The position numbers were made by a program, and so were the translations under genes. A stretch of DNA of 64,000 bases from an uncultured Bacteroidales bacterium (GTDB taxonomy: Bacteria > Bacteroidota > Bacteroidia > Bacteroidales > Bacteroidaceae): positions 18,377 to 82,376 of the forward strand of contig CASFRV010000009.1 of the NCBI GenBank assembly GCA_949297215.1. Direction: 5' to 3'. Numbering within the stretch: the stretch's first letter is position 1; the number at the start of each line of letters is the position of its first letter. Positions 45,582 through 51,073 of the stretch are shown here, piece after piece. The notes under the pieces are model-generated. The model was not told where the DNA came from. It was given only the letters and a program-made list of their open reading frames with translations, and did no database searches.

Positions 45582-45773
45582 TTAGTCCTCGGCGCGGCGC
45601 AATTGCTGCACATACACGGCGTGCTCCTTGGCCAAACGCTTCAAAACCGAAGGTTTGTCATACTGCTGACGGGCACGGAGTTCTTTGATGACACCGGTTC
45701 TTTCAAATTTTCTCTTAAACTTTTTGAGGGCGCGCTCAATGTTTTCGCCTTCCTTTACGGGTACGATAATCAT
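45582..45773 (-). CDS. rpsU: 30S ribosomal protein S21
   Basis: A 63-residue bS21 (MIIVPVKEGENIERALKKFK, KFERTGVIKELRARQQYDKP). The open frame is longer, but the promoter lies inside the extension and family resemblance begins at the ATG at 45771-45773. In Bacteroidota bS21 helps hide the anti-Shine-Dalgarno tail of 16S rRNA, which fits the weak ribosome binding sites in this window. The leader has no Shine-Dalgarno sequence. Confidence 0.93.
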   Translation of the reverse strand: MIIVPVKEGENIERALKKFKRKFERTGVIKELRARQQYDKPSVLKRLAKEHAVYVQQLRRAED

Positions 45774-45995: not shown

Positions 45996-46003
45996 TATAT
46001 TTG
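45996..46003 (+). promoter_or_regulatory. -7 promoter element before the rod hairpin
   Basis: TATATTTG is an exact match to the Bacteroidota -7 consensus. No TTG or TTTG lies about 20 nt upstream. It would start transcription near 46010, just ahead of an AGCCCC/GGGGCT hairpin (46021-46035) and the long rod structure. Confidence 0.5.
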
Positions 46004-46041
46004 CGGTGTCTCCCCACGCCAGCCCCTTAGGGGCTCGGGCA

Positions 46042-46368
46042 GGAGGGACAGACATACATATCAGAAAAGCGTTACTGCACGCTTTGGTTCTGGCGGTCTA
46101 AGAATCTCGCAAGTTCATCTGTCTGTCAGGAATCAAGCAACGGGAACGCTCCAAGGGATGTTTATCAAACAGCCTATTCACATCTTGACGCTGCAGCTCT
46201 TGCAGCGTCAACACAATGGGCTTCAAAGTTATAAACATCGGCGTGGGGCTTTCGGCGTTGCTCGTTCCGACAGACAGGGCAATGCGAGAGCCTTTAGACC
46301 GTGGAACGGGCAAACAGTCTGGCTCCACGTTTTTTATGTATGGTGGTACACAGCTTCTTAATCCCTCC
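46042..46368 (+). ncRNA. Candidate 327-nt rod-shaped structured RNA or leader
   Basis: Successive arms pair from the outside in: GGAGGGA 46042/TCCCTCC 46362; CATACATA 46053/TATGTATG 46335; ACTG 46074/CAGT 46315; TTTG 46083/CAAA 46311; GTTC 46087/GAAC 46304; CGGTCTAA 46094/TTAGACCG 46294; TCTCGCA 46105/TGCGAGA 46283; CTGTCTGTC 46119/GACAGACAG 46269; GGAACG 46143/CGTTCC 46263; GATGTTTAT 46157/ATAAACATC 46231; AGCCTATT 46171/AATGGGCT 46215 with one G-U pair; TTGACGCTGCA 46185/TGCAGCGTCAA 46201 capped by GCTCT. An alternative pairing AGCAACG 46136/CGTTGCT 46256 competes with the central helix. No coding frame explains it. It ends 11 nt before the methyltransferase start, so it may be a 5' leader, a separate ncRNA or a palindromic mobile element. 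Confidence 0.7.
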
Positions 46369-46379
46369 CACAGGTAGCC

Positions 46380-47213
46380 ATGGGAACAAGATCTAGACGA
46401 ATGGAAAACATAACAACAGACGTCAGATTGCCCCTATGGCTCGATACGTTCATTTTTGATACGATCGGTGCCCGATATTGTTGTGCTCGGACGGACATGA
46501 CAGTGATCGATTGGAACCGCAACGACGTGCTTGGCTATCTGGGCACCTACTTCCCACGTAGCTACGCAGAGGCATATTGTCTTTATTCAGCCTACTTCAA
46601 GCGGCACTTTTCCGCGTGGCAGGGACGAAAGCAACTCTCAGTATTCGATTTCGGCTGCGGAACAGGTGGCGAAATTATTGGTCTGCTCTCGGCCATCGCT
46701 AAATGTCTAACAGACGTAGAAGTAGTAGAAATCAACGCATTCGATGGCAACCAACATGCTCTCCGCTTCTTCGAACAAGTCTGCGATGAATTTGCAGTCC
46801 ATAGCTCAATGCAAATTCGAAAGCACGTCATTCCCTTTACCATAGACGATTTCTACGACCTCAGCGTGCTAGACAACGTCATCAACTCCACCTTCGACCT
46901 CATCCTCGTGTCCAAAGCCGTGTGCGAATTTGTCACCAAGGACCAGTTCGAGCACAAAAACGCCTACGCACACCTCGTCCGCTTCCTTCTGCCACGCCTC
47001 GCGGCAGGAGGAATGTTGCTCCTAACCGACGTAACCTCCCGTAACCAAACTTCACAGGAATGGCTGCCTCGCATGATGGATGCAGGACTGGCCGCAGCGG
47101 GGTGTCGCGTCGCAGCTCGCAACGAAGGTTTCAACCAAGCTTTCACAGTAACCCATTCGCGCCGGGTACGTGACGTTAGCAAGATCGCATGGCGCATCAT
47201 CACCAAACACTGA
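46380..47213 (+). CDS. Class I SAM-dependent methyltransferase
   Basis: A 277-residue protein (270 if the inner ATG at 46401, MENITTDV, is used). The Rossmann-type motif I is VFDFGCGTGGEIIGLL (residue ~94), followed by the acidic VEVVEINAFDG and the motif IV region DLILVSKAVCEF. The segment before motif I (YAEAYCLYSAYFKRHFSAWQ) faintly recalls Rsm22-type RNA methyltransferases, but the substrate is not known. It is the first gene of a four-gene operon, directly behind the rod hairpin, with AGGTAGCC before the ATG as a possible ribosome site. Codon use is less G/C rich than the genes beyond 51 kb. Confidence 0.75.
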   Translation: MGTRSRRMENITTDVRLPLWLDTFIFDTIGARYCCARTDMTVIDWNRNDVLGYLGTYFPRSYAEAYCLYSAYFKRHFSAWQGRKQLSVFDFGCGTGGEIIGLLSAIAKCLTDVEVVEINAFDGNQHALRFFEQVCDEFAVHSSMQIRKHVIPFTIDDFYDLSVLDNVINSTFDLILVSKAVCEFVTKDQFEHKNAYAHLVRFLLPRLAAGGMLLLTDVTSRNQTSQEWLPRMMDAGLAAAGCRVAARNEGFNQAFTVTHSRRVRDVSKIAWRIITKH

Positions 47214-47218
47214 CTACT

Positions 47219-48259
47219 ATGAAAAAAGACTGGATGGTAAAAGAATCCGAGCTAGATGACGATCAAATTCGCGTGCTTAACTCTATTCTTGACAAGTCGA
47301 TGATCGTAACAGGCTGCGCAGGCAGCGGAAAATCCGTTCTCGCCCTGATGAAAGCCCAACGCATCCAAAACGAGCGCGGCGACAACTACGAAGTTATCGT
47401 CTACACCAAAGCGCTACGCGCATACATGGAAGAAGGTCGCAAAGCGCTAGGCTTGCACGGGCAATTCACCTACCATTGGTACTGGGAAAACCGTCTGGGA
47501 TGCCCAACGGCCGATTACGTCATCGTAGATGAGGCGCAAGACTTCACCGAAGAAGAAATTCTGATACTCATCAGAGCCGCACATAAGCATTTCTATTTCT
47601 TCGGCGACACGGCGCAGTCTGTCTACCACGCTTTCAAACCCACCGTGGAAATGGAAGACATCAAATATTTCTGCGACAGGGCAAACAGTCCTAAGGAGGC
47701 AAAACTCTATCGTAACTACCGCTTGCCCATCCCCATGGCACGGTTGGCAGCCCATGTGGGAGTTGGCCTTCTATCATTCGACGAAAAAATTTATAGGAGT
47801 AGAATGACAGACAAACCGTATGTGCTCCGTTTTAATAATTTGCGTGACCAGGTGGCATGTATATGCAAAGAGCTCAAAAAGCCCAACCGCGATGACGCAG
47901 CCATTCTCTGCGTCGACAACGACGCCGTTGACGCCGTGCATTTACTGCTGGATAGCTTTGGAGAAAAGCATGAACTCAAATCGAAACAAGGATACACACT
48001 CAACTTCGCCACAGATCTACCCAAAGTCATGACGGCACATAGTGCAAAAGGGCTGCAATTCCGAACAGTGTTCGTGGTAGGTGTGGAACGATACGAAATG
48101 AACGACGACCAGCGCAAAGTGCTTTATGTAGCCATGACGCGCACCTACCAATACCTCTATCTGCTGTACAGCGGGTCGCTCCCGCCTTACTTCCCGCCCG
48201 CATCGAACGGTCTCTACGAGACCTCTATTACCTCTACAGAAACCATCCAAGATATCTAA
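47219..48259 (+). CDS. Compact superfamily 1 (UvrD-like) helicase
   Basis: A 346-residue ATPase with the SF1 motifs in order: Q-type LDDDQIRVLN, Walker A GCAGSGKSV, Ia region VIVYTKALRAYM, Walker B YVIVDEAQD, motif III YFFGDTAQSVY, motif IV LYRNYRLP, motif V VMTAHSAKGLQF, motif VI VLYVAMTRTYQYLYLLYSG. It lacks the large 1B and 2B insertions of UvrD or Rep, so it resembles the small helicases found in defence and phage-linked loci. It starts 5 nt after the methyltransferase stop and 5 nt before the next gene. Full helicase activity is inferred from the motifs. Confidence 0.85.
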   Translation: MKKDWMVKESELDDDQIRVLNSILDKSMIVTGCAGSGKSVLALMKAQRIQNERGDNYEVIVYTKALRAYMEEGRKALGLHGQFTYHWYWENRLGCPTADYVIVDEAQDFTEEEILILIRAAHKHFYFFGDTAQSVYHAFKPTVEMEDIKYFCDRANSPKEAKLYRNYRLPIPMARLAAHVGVGLLSFDEKIYRSRMTDKPYVLRFNNLRDQVACICKELKKPNRDDAAILCVDNDAVDAVHLLLDSFGEKHELKSKQGYTLNFATDLPKVMTAHSAKGLQFRTVFVVGVERYEMNDDQRKVLYVAMTRTYQYLYLLYSGSLPPYFPPASNGLYETSITSTETIQDI

Positions 48260-48264
48260 GCCTT

Positions 48265-50052
48265 ATGAAACTATACATCCCGACTTCGACCCTCAACTTC
48301 AACAATATTCTCTCGACCGAGAGCCTCTCGCCGCAAGCCTTCTACGCTCATCGCGACTTTGGCTATAAGCGATGGACGTCCATCCCTGAAAACGGGTTGG
48401 CAAACGCCATTTTGCTCTACGATCGACCTTTCCATTTCAGTCGTCCTGCAAGCGACCAAGAAGATCACCCTATGTGGGTTGAGATAGAGACGAACGAAAA
48501 GTTCACATCTGTGGCTGACGGCATCCGCCTCTCAGACCACACAATCTACCTATCACCATGGCGCACTCACTTCTTTTTTCTTACAGAAGCAGACCTCCGC
48601 ACCACCCAATCACTCACACAGCAAAGTGCAGAAACGAAGCTCACTCCGCTTTACAGCAGACACATGAAGCTCCGCAACGACTACCCCACCACCCCATCCC
48701 TTGACATCCCGAAAAACAAAGTCAACTTAAACATGGAGGCCATCAACTATGACTGCAGAATCAACAAATTGAAAGGGCTACTCTACGGCTACTACCTTGG
48801 TGCATTATTTTCCGAGGCGCCCGCCATTGCGAACTTACGCTTGCAGCTCCTCACCCTGCGCAACAACTTCTATGCCCGTTGGTCAGCCTCATTCTTGAAT
48901 CAGAAAGGCGCAAAGACATTACACCCCGAGACACAGAAAATGTTCGACTACTTATGGAAGAAAAAGCTCTCCTTATCCGACCTATTCAATGCTTGGTTAG
49001 AAGACGAATGGGAACGCTTGGATCTTCGCGCTGCCACGGAGCGCAACCTCTTGTCGACGAAAAACGAAGAAATCATCGTCGCAGACAATCGGCTGGCCAA
49101 GATAAGCCCAAATGTTCTATCCGATGAATGGGAAAACAAACTTTTCATGGCATGGGCAAACGATGTATTCATACACCCTGAATATACTGGCGACCCTGCC
49201 ACATTCCGCGAAGCCCTCTCTGACACATTGACCCAAACCGCATGCAACCTACTCAGCACACAGTGGGAGAACAGTGTGCTTCGCACACAGCTGAACGCCA
49301 TGCGCCACCTTGTAAGAGGTAACGACAATCATTTTCTCTGGGCCAACACTCTCACCTCAGCAGCTGCCGCCGTCCTGCTCTGGGGCGACGATTGGGAAAA
49401 CCTCCGCAGCAAGCTGCGCGAAAAAGGTACAATAGACTTCCGCCTTGCTTTCGCCCTCTATGGTGAACTCACAGGCTTTGCCAATCTTACACGCGACTTC
49501 ACGGACCATCTCTTCAAACTCGATAGACAATACGTTGCCGATGTATACAAAGAATTGTATGGAGAGCTACATGGAACTGCGGCAGACATACCCTCCTCCC
49601 CCCAAAAAGACACTAACACTACAACAAGAAATACAGAAGAGACAATTACACCTAAAAACATTGGAGATTTTTCAGCTTCTGACTTATTAAAGAACTTGAA
49701 AGAACGCATTCTTCGCATTTATGAATATTTAAAAAAAAGCAAAGCCCAAAACAAGGATATATTGATTGAGGAGCTTAAAGAAGTAGAACTTGAAATGTGC
49801 GATACAGAGACACCCCCAAGCTTCTTAAACAAACTCTCAAAGAAAGACAATTGGAAAAAAAAGAGACCAGTACTGAAAAAAGCCGAAGAGATACTTGGTA
49901 TTCCAAAAGAACAAAAAGTCAAAACTCCCCAAGTTAGGAATTGCTCAAATGAACAAAAAGAACTTTTTCAAGAAACAGGTGAATTAGCCCAAAAAGTATG
50001 CGCAGAACTAAAAGAACTCAGAAATGCCCAACAAACTGACAATCATCACTGA
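48265..50052 (+). CDS. Unrecognised 595-residue protein of the methyltransferase-helicase operon
   Basis: I do not recognise this family. It starts MKLYIPTSTLNFNNILSTES and has no signal peptide or membrane segment. Residues 1 to about 440 look globular with many aromatic residues (SPQAFYAHRDFGYKRWTSIP, DHTIYLSPWRTHFFF). From about 440 a polar linker (SSPQKDTNTTTRNTEETITP) leads to a Lys/Glu-rich, probably coiled-coil end (LKERILRIYEYLKKSKAQNK). The DNA is more A/T rich than its surroundings, most of all in its last 500 nt. Only 5 nt separate it from the helicase, and its end overlaps the DUF1848 start by 29 nt, so it is translated as part of the operon. It may be an effector or an adaptor. 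Confidence 0.7.
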   Translation: MKLYIPTSTLNFNNILSTESLSPQAFYAHRDFGYKRWTSIPENGLANAILLYDRPFHFSRPASDQEDHPMWVEIETNEKFTSVADGIRLSDHTIYLSPWRTHFFFLTEADLRTTQSLTQQSAETKLTPLYSRHMKLRNDYPTTPSLDIPKNKVNLNMEAINYDCRINKLKGLLYGYYLGALFSEAPAIANLRLQLLTLRNNFYARWSASFLNQKGAKTLHPETQKMFDYLWKKKLSLSDLFNAWLEDEWERLDLRAATERNLLSTKNEEIIVADNRLAKISPNVLSDEWENKLFMAWANDVFIHPEYTGDPATFREALSDTLTQTACNLLSTQWENSVLRTQLNAMRHLVRGNDNHFLWANTLTSAAAAVLLWGDDWENLRSKLREKGTIDFRLAFALYGELTGFANLTRDFTDHLFKLDRQYVADVYKELYGELHGTAADIPSSPQKDTNTTTRNTEETITPKNIGDFSASDLLKNLKERILRIYEYLKKSKAQNKDILIEELKEVELEMCDTETPPSFLNKLSKKDNWKKKRPVLKKAEEILGIPKEQKVKTPQVRNCSNEQKELFQETGELAQKVCAELKELRNAQQTDNHH

Positions 50053-51073
50053 CAGCGGCGAACGGGTGGAAGCTATGGCGCCCGTGGTCATCTCGGCCAG
50101 CCGTTCCACGGACATCCCGGCGTTCTACGCCCGCTGGTTCTTCAACCGATTACGAAGAGGCTATTGTGCGTGGATTAACCCATTCAACCGGCGACGATCG
50201 TACGTTTCGTTCGCCCGTTGCCACGTCGTGGTGTTTTGGACGAAAAACCCACGCCCCATCCTGCCCTACCTGCATGAACTCGATGAAAGGGGCATTCATT
50301 ATTATTTCCAGGTGACGCTGAACGACTACGAGCGCGAACGCTTCGAACCGGGCGTACCACCGCTGGCCGAACGCATCGCCACTTTCCGCGAATTGGCCGA
50401 AAAAATTGGGCCGGCCCGCGTCATCTGGCGTTTCGATCCTCTCATCTTCACGCCCACGACAACGCCCCGAGAGCTACTTAAACGTATCTGGCGCATCGGC
50501 AACCGGTTGGAACATTGTACCGAAAAACTCGTGTTCAGCTTCGTTGATGTGAAAGCCTACCGGAAAGTGCAGCAAAACCTTATCAAAGAAACATCCTGCT
50601 TCACCAAAGACGATGTCATGCAGGCCGAATTGGACGCCGAACAGCGCCATGAAATGGTCGAGGGGATGGCCAAATTGCGCGACGCTTGGGCTACCCGCGG
50701 ATGGCCCGTCGCACTGGCCACTTGCGCCGAGAACGACGATTTCAGCGCCTACGGCATCGAACACAACTGCTGCATCGATGCCCTGCTGATGGAGAGCCTA
50801 TTCAGCGAAGACCGCGAACTAACCTACTACCTACGCACAGGGCGTTGGCCCGAACCTGATCTATTCGGGGCGCTCCCGCCACTGCCCGAAAAACGCAAAA
50901 ATCTGAAAGACAAAGGTCAACGGCGGGCTTGCGGCTGCATGGTGAGCAAAGACATCGGCATGTATGACACCTGTCGCCACTTCTGCGTCTACTGTTACGC
51001 CAACAGCAGCCGCAACCGGGTCGAGGCCAATGCTGTGCAAATCACCGGCGAGGGTGAAAGTCTCATCGGCTAA
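50024..51073 (+). CDS. DUF1848 protein with C-terminal cysteine cluster
   Basis: A 349-residue DUF1848 protein. Recognised by VVISASRSTDIPAFYARWF, HVVVFWTKNPRPILPYLHEL and the C-terminal cysteines (RACGCMVSKDIG, CRHFCVYCYAN). The cysteine pattern suggests an iron-sulfur cluster, and the family is distantly related to spore photoproduct lyase-like radical enzymes; its reaction is not established. The ATG at 50024 overlaps the preceding gene. GC content is higher than in that gene, so it may be an older neighbour taken into the operon. Confidence 0.8.
   Translation: MPNKLTIITDSGERVEAMAPVVISASRSTDIPAFYARWFFNRLRRGYCAWINPFNRRRSYVSFARCHVVVFWTKNPRPILPYLHELDERGIHYYFQVTLNDYERERFEPGVPPLAERIATFRELAEKIGPARVIWRFDPLIFTPTTTPRELLKRIWRIGNRLEHCTEKLVFSFVDVKAYRKVQQNLIKETSCFTKDDVMQAELDAEQRHEMVEGMAKLRDAWATRGWPVALATCAENDDFSAYGIEHNCCIDALLMESLFSEDRELTYYLRTGRWPEPDLFGALPPLPEKRKNLKDKGQRRACGCMVSKDIGMYDTCRHFCVYCYANSSRNRVEANAVQITGEGESLIG

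Follow-up and report, generated by a model that had tools for sequence, protein, structure and literature searches.

A Bacteroidales family of structured 5′ leader RNAs with mutually exclusive pairings, a candidate attenuator of diverse operons

In the 64,000-nucleotide stretch of Bacteroidales DNA analysed here (the window), an earlier note had singled out positions 46010-46379 as a rod-shaped structured RNA in front of an operon, which raises the questions of whether this segment belongs to an RNA family, how far the RNA extends, and how it might act on the genes that follow. The minimum-energy fold of the plus strand of this segment reached -160.3 kcal/mol, versus a mean of -112.5 kcal/mol (SD 6.3) for 100 dinucleotide shuffles, none of which was as good (z = -7.6); for an extended leader, 46009-46400, z was -9.3. 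This fold was a rod, as the note described, and the nested arms were found at the places assigned to them, for example 46094-46101 with 46294-46301 and 46119-46127 with 46269-46277, together with 46157-46165/46231-46239 and 46053-46060/46335-46342. The minus strand of the segment was likewise stable (z = -8.9).

Relatives of the segment were described with a profile; of 165 loci searched, almost all of them chosen for a match to part of the RNA, it detected the RNA in 163. The aligned set comprised 146 distinct members out of the 163 profile matches, those with enough flank. From covariation counts and a phylogenetic null, we derived a core in which X1, H1, X2, and H2 surround a junction and the H1 and H2 loops contact each other. 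In the window, where all features of the leader are on the plus strand, helix X1 joins 46094-46101 to TTAGACCG (46294-46301), and X2 joins CTGTCTGTC (46119-46127) to GACAGACAG (46269-46277). H1 is a small hairpin, GAA-TCTCGCAAG-TTC (46102-46116), whose loop bases 46105-46111 pair with 46283-46289 in its loop partner H2, GGGC-AATGCGAGA-GCCT (46276-46294).

By simple count, pairing reached 97% in X1 (columns 92-100/269-277) and 99% in the H1-H2 loop contact (columns 103-109/259-265), and double-change cells numbered 446 and 131, respectively. When substitutions were reassigned along the tree (30 simulations; 145 of the 146 members, one near-identical member being dropped), 16 column pairs scored above every null simulation. 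Eleven of these were paired in 80% of members or more; X1 accounted for seven of the eleven, the loop contact for two, and X2 and H1 for one each. The remaining five corresponded to offset or unpaired neighbours. Alignments of 61 out of 99 diverse 3′ segments (A3) and of 52 out of 111 full segments (A4) were also made. In the 52-sequence count, 81.3% of cells were paired, whereas sliding gave no more than 49.9%; double-change cells numbered 230, versus 88.8 after shuffling (none of the 500 shuffles was as high); two of the five measures, namely pairs with double change (146/500) and pair types (311/500), failed to exceed shuffles. X2 was just 65.5% paired on the 52-sequence alignment, on which five of the seven base pairs of the loop contact were invariant. 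The stem of H2 is nearly invariant, so that covariation neither supports nor denies it.

Base pairs are kept through compensatory change, as expected of a cis-regulatory leader, and covariation among relatives, which the earlier note had set as a test, is present. In the columns of X1 and of the loop contact, wobble cells among the 146 relatives were more often G-U than A-C (43 and 12, respectively, with 2083 Watson-Crick cells). The plus strand is thus indicated by the promoter, the direction of the genes, and this wobble bias, and the covariation and the plus-strand wobble excess uphold the view that the segment is a structured RNA and not a DNA palindrome.

To describe the spread of the family, whole genomes were searched at one per species. 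In a DNA search (E ≤ 0.001) of 151 genomes of the same taxonomic family, a set that includes the window's own genome, 64 matched, and the window's genome contained further partial copies of the RNA; six strong copies and one weak copy were counted in it. At least 118 stretches were found by a pattern scan of named genome contigs, with a Segatella copri strain and Bacteroides caecigallinarum ET12 among the carriers. Among the matches listed (80 titles), 76 were named as Bacteroidota, mostly Bacteroidales, the carriers including Bacteroides, Phocaeicola, Prevotella, Segatella, Parabacteroides, Muribaculaceae, and others; the other four were metagenome-assembled genomes labelled outside Bacteroidota, which we took to be misbinned. 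An order-wide covariance model, which covers only the 98-nt 3′ part of the RNA, detected it in 58 of the 393 genomes of the order (E ≤ 1e-5), with two or more copies in 43 of these 58 genomes and up to at least 10 copies per genome. Of 395 genomes drawn at the level of the phylum, this model matched 2 at E ≤ 0.001, both from the same order, and no match was obtained in genomes of other orders at this threshold. Judged from these searches, the family is patchy yet spread over the order Bacteroidales. With one member as query, no DNA match was found in phage and plasmid collections. On an IMG/VR contig classed as viral (locus L198), a copy of the leader precedes a GTPase-like gene, with an Hsp70-like gene further on; Hsp70-like and kinase-like genes were also read from the sequence downstream of the leader in loci L041 and L057.

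The -7 element announced upstream of the segment is there: TATATTTG, at 45996-46003, is of the Bacteroidota type. Among the 146 distinct members, 103 carry TAnnTTTG at a single fixed distance from the point where the profile begins. Transcription would start at about 46009-46011. At the other end, the next downstream gene was on the same strand in 145 of the 151 members with enough flank for neighbour analysis, with an opposite-strand frame in the other 6, while the strand of upstream neighbours was mixed (81 plus, 53 minus). Gene starts lay at a median of 64 nt beyond the approximate end of a U-run, a minimal distance since the first possible start codon of each frame was used, and a second promoter element was found in the gap before the gene in 1 case out of 105, versus 3.0 expected. 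A promoter at the 5′ end of the RNA and a same-strand gene near its 3′ end are what a cis-regulatory leader should have, and the placement of the RNA ahead of an operon stands.

These results also bear on the idea of a mobile DNA palindrome or miniature transposon, the copies of which would fold by chance. Many copies at unrelated sites, which the earlier note would have taken as the mark of such an element, were indeed found; the copies themselves, however, are unlike a mobile palindrome, as nearly all face genes, most keep a fixed promoter offset, and the family exhibits compensatory changes and a plus-strand wobble excess. Moreover, no near-identical copies were seen among four copies of the window's genome compared pairwise, which were only 58-62% identical, and this suggests an old paralogous family rather than recent transposition there. 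We regard this explanation as hardly credible. Among the 14 largest upstream-neighbour clusters, a transposase-like frame, read from the sequence, recurred in 2 loci, at a distance of 1.2-2.5 kb.

The genes that follow the RNA were very diverse. The 145 first genes formed 105 BLASTP clusters, the largest of which (12 genes) reads as BspA-type leucine-rich surface proteins; overall, 689 downstream frames fell into 565 clusters and 433 upstream frames into 414. First genes included those of a type III methyltransferase, SspB, AbiEi, an HKD-Snf2 protein, a DUF4007 protein, BrxA, BrxP, and a UvrD-type helicase; a CsgG-type protein and a protein kinase were also encoded by first genes. Judged by sequence, the 18 frames of one downstream cluster, from 11 loci, appear to encode serine/threonine kinases. 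In loci L096, L101, L189, and L209, the first gene encodes a protein of about 70-100 amino acids that reads like a helix-turn-helix regulator. PADLOC, run on 100 downstream first genes (100 of 103 cluster representatives, two short ones and one doubtful frame being left out), returned several defence genes, and some defence matches were also obtained among 50 upstream control genes. A cargo restricted to defence was rejected, given the matches of the control genes; for the same reason, and because PADLOC output lacks per-protein counts, we claim diversity of the cargo and not enrichment. On our best reading of these sequences, the leader appears to sit before defence, surface, and signalling operons. 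Upstream of the window leader, a small bS21-like gene (45582-45773, minus strand) is divergently oriented and lies just next to it; this is probably a coincidence, since the upstream neighbours of other copies belong to other clusters.

In the window, the leader is followed by four genes, all on the plus strand: gene 1 (46401-47213), which is SAM methyltransferase-like by a weak match; gene 2 (47189-48259), a superfamily 1 helicase (Viral_helicase1, 6.5e-16; UvrD_C_2, 1.3e-10); gene 3 (48265-50052), encoding a protein of 595 amino acids without convincing family match; and gene 4 (50024-51073), a DUF1848 gene (1.1e-90; PADLOC RTasDUF1848, 2.6e-40). A sequence search of the 595-amino-acid protein against solved structures gave a single match (E 0.61), and its relatives were found in 4 of the 393 genomes of the order, the window's own included. 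This operon of methyltransferase, helicase, 595-amino-acid protein, and DUF1848 (46401-51073) recurs in distant Bacteroidales. Six operon relatives were examined: the RNA precedes the operon in the window, L064, and L220, and was not detectable at the other three, L229, L230, and L231, of which L229 and L230 come from one genome and L230 and L231 exhibit a changed gene content. L230 and L231 adjoin genes that, by sequence, resemble those for DNA methyltransferases and type I restriction, on account of which the window operon may be a putative, undescribed defence operon. As no RNA was detectable at three of the six relatives, the leader is an optional and not a fixed part of this operon; conversely, with more than 100 first-gene clusters, and with operon relatives that also occur without the RNA, the downstream operon is incidental to the RNA.

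That the RNA, in the manner of retron RNAs, is built into a ribonucleoprotein whose proteins come from the downstream operon is for these reasons very improbable. Such a reading could draw on the DUF1848 protein and the helicase, which score with PADLOC models of reverse transcriptase-associated proteins, and on a weak match of gene 1 (E 0.0017) to the model RT_UG35; against it, no Pfam or NCBIfam reverse transcriptase match was found in the window operon, three of the six operon relatives lack a detectable RNA, and the 105 clusters among 145 first genes largely refute it for the family as a whole. Retron and DRT RNAs are tied to one cognate protein family, and the same cluster count sets the leader apart from them.

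If the RNA acts on whichever genes follow it, the question becomes how. Outside the core, several strands of the window leader have more than one partner. Strand E (CCCCACGCC, 46012-46020) is complementary, at nine out of nine positions, to 46240-46248 in strand C. It is followed by the hairpin P0 (AGCCCCT/AGGGGCT, 46021-46035) and by E′ (46039-46058), which pairs locally with the 5′ end, here through 46045-46050 with 46007-46012; the E′-E and E-C pairings of the window member have one base in common. Strand A (46064-46094) contains a local hairpin (46066-46072/46079-46085), and its TTCTGGC pairs with strand B (46125-46152), an alternative partner of both A and C. Hairpin M, of variable length, extends over 46157-46239 (46157-46165/46231-46239, with an inner part 46185-46195/46201-46211). 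Strand C (CGGCGTGGGGCTTTCGGCGTTGCTCGTTCC, 46239-46268) is highly conserved, and its partners are E, B, or D. Finally, strand D occupies 46301-46329, and 46321-46331 pairs with 46240-46250 of C in a run of 11 bp, forming a terminator-like stem immediately 5′ of a U-run (TTTTTT, 46330-46335). The strands GTTGCTCGTT (46258-46267) and, in the family, AACGAGCAAC (46305-46315) presumably resemble a conserved stretch of 16S rRNA, with a two-base gap.

To escape alignment error, these pairings were evaluated by a swap test, in which the best complementarity of two segments within a member is compared with that obtained when one segment is swapped between members; the control, drawn from the ten relatives nearest to each member (mean identity 68%), lessens shared ancestry and does not remove it. 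Under this control, the core was strongly member-specific (X1, z = 29.5; X2, 30.2; loop contact, 10.0; H1, 4.6), as were the local elements E′ (10.3), P0 (8.4), and M (6.3), with D local at 2.5. Among the mutually exclusive pairings, z was 5.6 for E-C, 5.5 for D-T (T being the hairpin described below), and 4.3 for C-D outer; A-B inner and B-C outer reached 5.1 and 3.7, respectively. Nearest-relative swaps did not support C-D inner (0.0), A-D (1.7), A-B outer (1.9), A-B mid (1.2), B-C inner (1.1), C-T (1.1), A local (-0.2), the H2 stem (-3.2), or C-H2 (-5.3). Member by member, the own pairing for C-D outer was above the nearest-relative mean in only 84 out of 146 members and below it in 62; the corresponding numbers were 103 and 43 for D-T, and 106 and 29 for E-C.

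The best helices of these pairings compete for the same bases: in 109 of the 146 members, E-C and C-D have three or more bases of C in common, and in 115 the same holds for C-D and D-T with bases of D. Since C can take only one of E and D as its partner, and D only one of C and T, the C:D pairing excludes E:C as well as D:T. Runs of at least 6 bp, chance runs included and controlled by the swaps, were found in 142 (C-D), 113 (D-T), and 101 (E-C) of the 146 members, and one member, locus L068, exhibits runs of 12 bp (E-C), 11 bp (C-D), and 10 bp (D-T) together. Within E, the E-C signal resides in columns 14-22 (z = 6.4, versus just 1.4 in columns 6-14), and E′ pairs chiefly with columns 6-14 (z = 8.5; 7.4 with columns 6-22). 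With overlaps of at least 3 nt of E in 71 of the 146 members and signals in different halves of E, E′ was not established as a firm competitor of E-C. We likewise rejected the idea that columns 0-62, the entire 5′ segment, pair with the gap upstream of the gene, the own value of -24.8 kcal/mol equalling the swapped one of -24.9 kcal/mol in 105 members.

The C-D stem is usually followed by a U-run: TTTTT occurred within 11 nt after the stem in 123 of the 146 members, versus 74 of 2920 random 11-mers of leaders. A simple terminator scan, the loop limit of which is 8 nt, did not flag the U-run. The leader thus has the competing stems expected of an attenuator, C-D versus E-C and D-T, with a U-run after C-D. 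In the rod, the U-run would pair with strand A, a pairing which lacks support (A-D, z = 1.7). The exclusive alternative helix that the earlier note placed at 46136/46256 does exist; its z of 1.1, however, gives no sign of member specificity beyond relatedness. A pure rod reading was rejected, as its A-D and inner B-C helices gave no member-specific signal, and the swaps indicate that at least one other pairing scheme is conserved beside the rod. In energy terms, the rod was on average 14 kcal/mol better than separately folded halves (calculated values, in which loop contacts are not counted), and the separate halves were lower in only 4 of the 146 members; the terminator state would therefore be kinetic, formed during transcription, or factor-driven. 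Each half of the leader alone folded better than shuffles (z = -4.4 and -3.6; 40 members).

Beyond the U-run, many members carry a further hairpin, T, about 24 nt downstream, with a loop such as GGAGYC. The motif G[GT]AG[CT]C was found in 47 of the 146 members, versus 8.2 expected, and 43 of these 47 motifs were enclosed by a stem of 4 bp or longer, versus 25.3 expected. Strand D has a complement in the gap before the gene (own 16.3 versus swapped 13.1, z = 14.3), and no such complement was found in this gap for seven other leader segments (z from -1.6 to 0.9); the 99 members that lack the motif retain the signal (15.5 versus 12.3). In the window, hairpin T is TCCCA-CAGGTAGCCA-TGGGA (46366-46385), 15 nt 5′ of the likely start codon. 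The D-T match of the window member is weak (AGCCA/TGGCT), and another short match, at 46393-46398, scores slightly higher.

This hairpin moves the 3′ border of the RNA. The earlier note had the structure stop 11 nt before a start codon. The leader does not end near 46336; since a hairpin of a type common in the family lies further on, the leader, as read from the sequence, extends to about 46385, and the ATG at 46380 sits within the hairpin. For this reason, and because the homologue in locus L220 begins MITDVYLPQWLD, gene 1 likely starts at 46401 (MENITTDV) and not at 46380. Overall, the earlier interpretation is partly supported, having missed the competing pairings, the extension to about 46385, and the incidental nature of the downstream operon.

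The promoter at a fixed offset, the covarying fold, the placement close to genes on many operons, and the exclusive, member-specific pairings are observed. From these we lean, by a small amount, towards reading the segment as the 5′ leader of the operon mRNA, a member of a large Bacteroidales family of structured leaders, that would work as a cis-acting attenuator. The leader appears to be built to change shape, probably so as to decide gene switching. When C pairs with D, the resulting hairpin would be directly followed by the U-run, and transcription would end before the genes; when E, near the 5′ end, takes C, the C:D hairpin would be blocked and the polymerase would read through. After read-through, hairpin T would hold D just before the start codon, and translation may be affected; as T lies past the U-run, it cannot itself prevent termination there. 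E′ is a local partner of E, using mostly the neighbouring half of E, and the core (X1, X2, and H1/H2 with their touching loops) would be the likely sensing or timing module.

Two other readings make use of the same elements. A folded leader ending at hairpin T could control translation, by recruiting or blocking the ribosome, and not termination; the position of T and its docking on D, as well as the compact long-range fold, would suit this, and the ribosomes of this group of bacteria have been reported not to use Shine-Dalgarno pairing (PMC9976891). It leaves the U-run unexplained, however, as does the rod (A-D, z = 1.7), and we find it unlikely. The RNA could also be a separate small RNA of about 325 nt, ending at the U-run and acting in trans, with the genes being read by leakage. 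It has its own promoter, a U-run, and a strong, stable fold, but the D-T pairing ties it to sequence past the U-run, and a close same-strand gene was present in 145 of 151 members, with a second promoter in only 1 of 105 gaps; this reading appears rather improbable to us.

Compared with described systems, the proposed attenuator has several partial counterparts. In trp-type attenuators, a strand pairs with an earlier or a later strand, and the later pairing gives a stem followed by a U-run. The leader shares this strand exchange and its outcome, but it is about 380 nt long, has a long-range loop-loop core and a strand T past the U-run, and serves very different operons with one architecture. 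Like riboswitches and orphan riboswitch candidates, it is a promoter-proximal folded leader with a conserved core, two hairpins with touching loops, and competing stems near the gene; unlike known riboswitches, it has no Rfam match, and the downstream genes share no evident pathway. RNA antitermination leaders (HK022 put, EAR) are structures at the 5′ end of the RNA before operons of varied content, as is the present leader, which differs in having no Rfam match. The OLE, ROOL, and GOLLD families are present in Rfam. The leader is not matched by Rfam and is tied to the start of a downstream gene, which separates it from these families, and it resembles them in being large, highly folded, and bacterial, as these ornate RNAs are described (PMC12286853).

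Rfam 15 returned only tRNAs in the window at the gathering score, and at E ≤ 10 one match (4.9 bits, KCNQ1OT1_1), on the other strand; in the loci of twelve relatives, three weak matches were obtained at E ≤ 1, all under the gathering score. The absence of the RNA from Rfam was thus upheld at the gathering score and at relaxed E-values. No description of the leader RNA was found in searches of open-licence PMC papers, and the family is apparently undescribed, judged by Rfam 15 and this open-licence literature.

Nearly 400 nt long and often present in several copies per genome across gut Bacteroidales, such a leader would be a common regulatory handle on accessory genes of the order, defence operons among them, and the alternative pairings of E, C, D, and T yield clear, testable predictions. 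More tentatively, and with more doubt than confidence, we propose that the family may consist of sensing leaders that provide shared control of a Bacteroidales accessory regulon under one common signal. If this is true, restriction, BREX, Ssp, and Abi defence operons, as well as surface-protein and kinase operons, would acquire the leader and thereby come under this signal, which might be a cue of infection or envelope stress, or else an antitermination event that modifies the polymerase.
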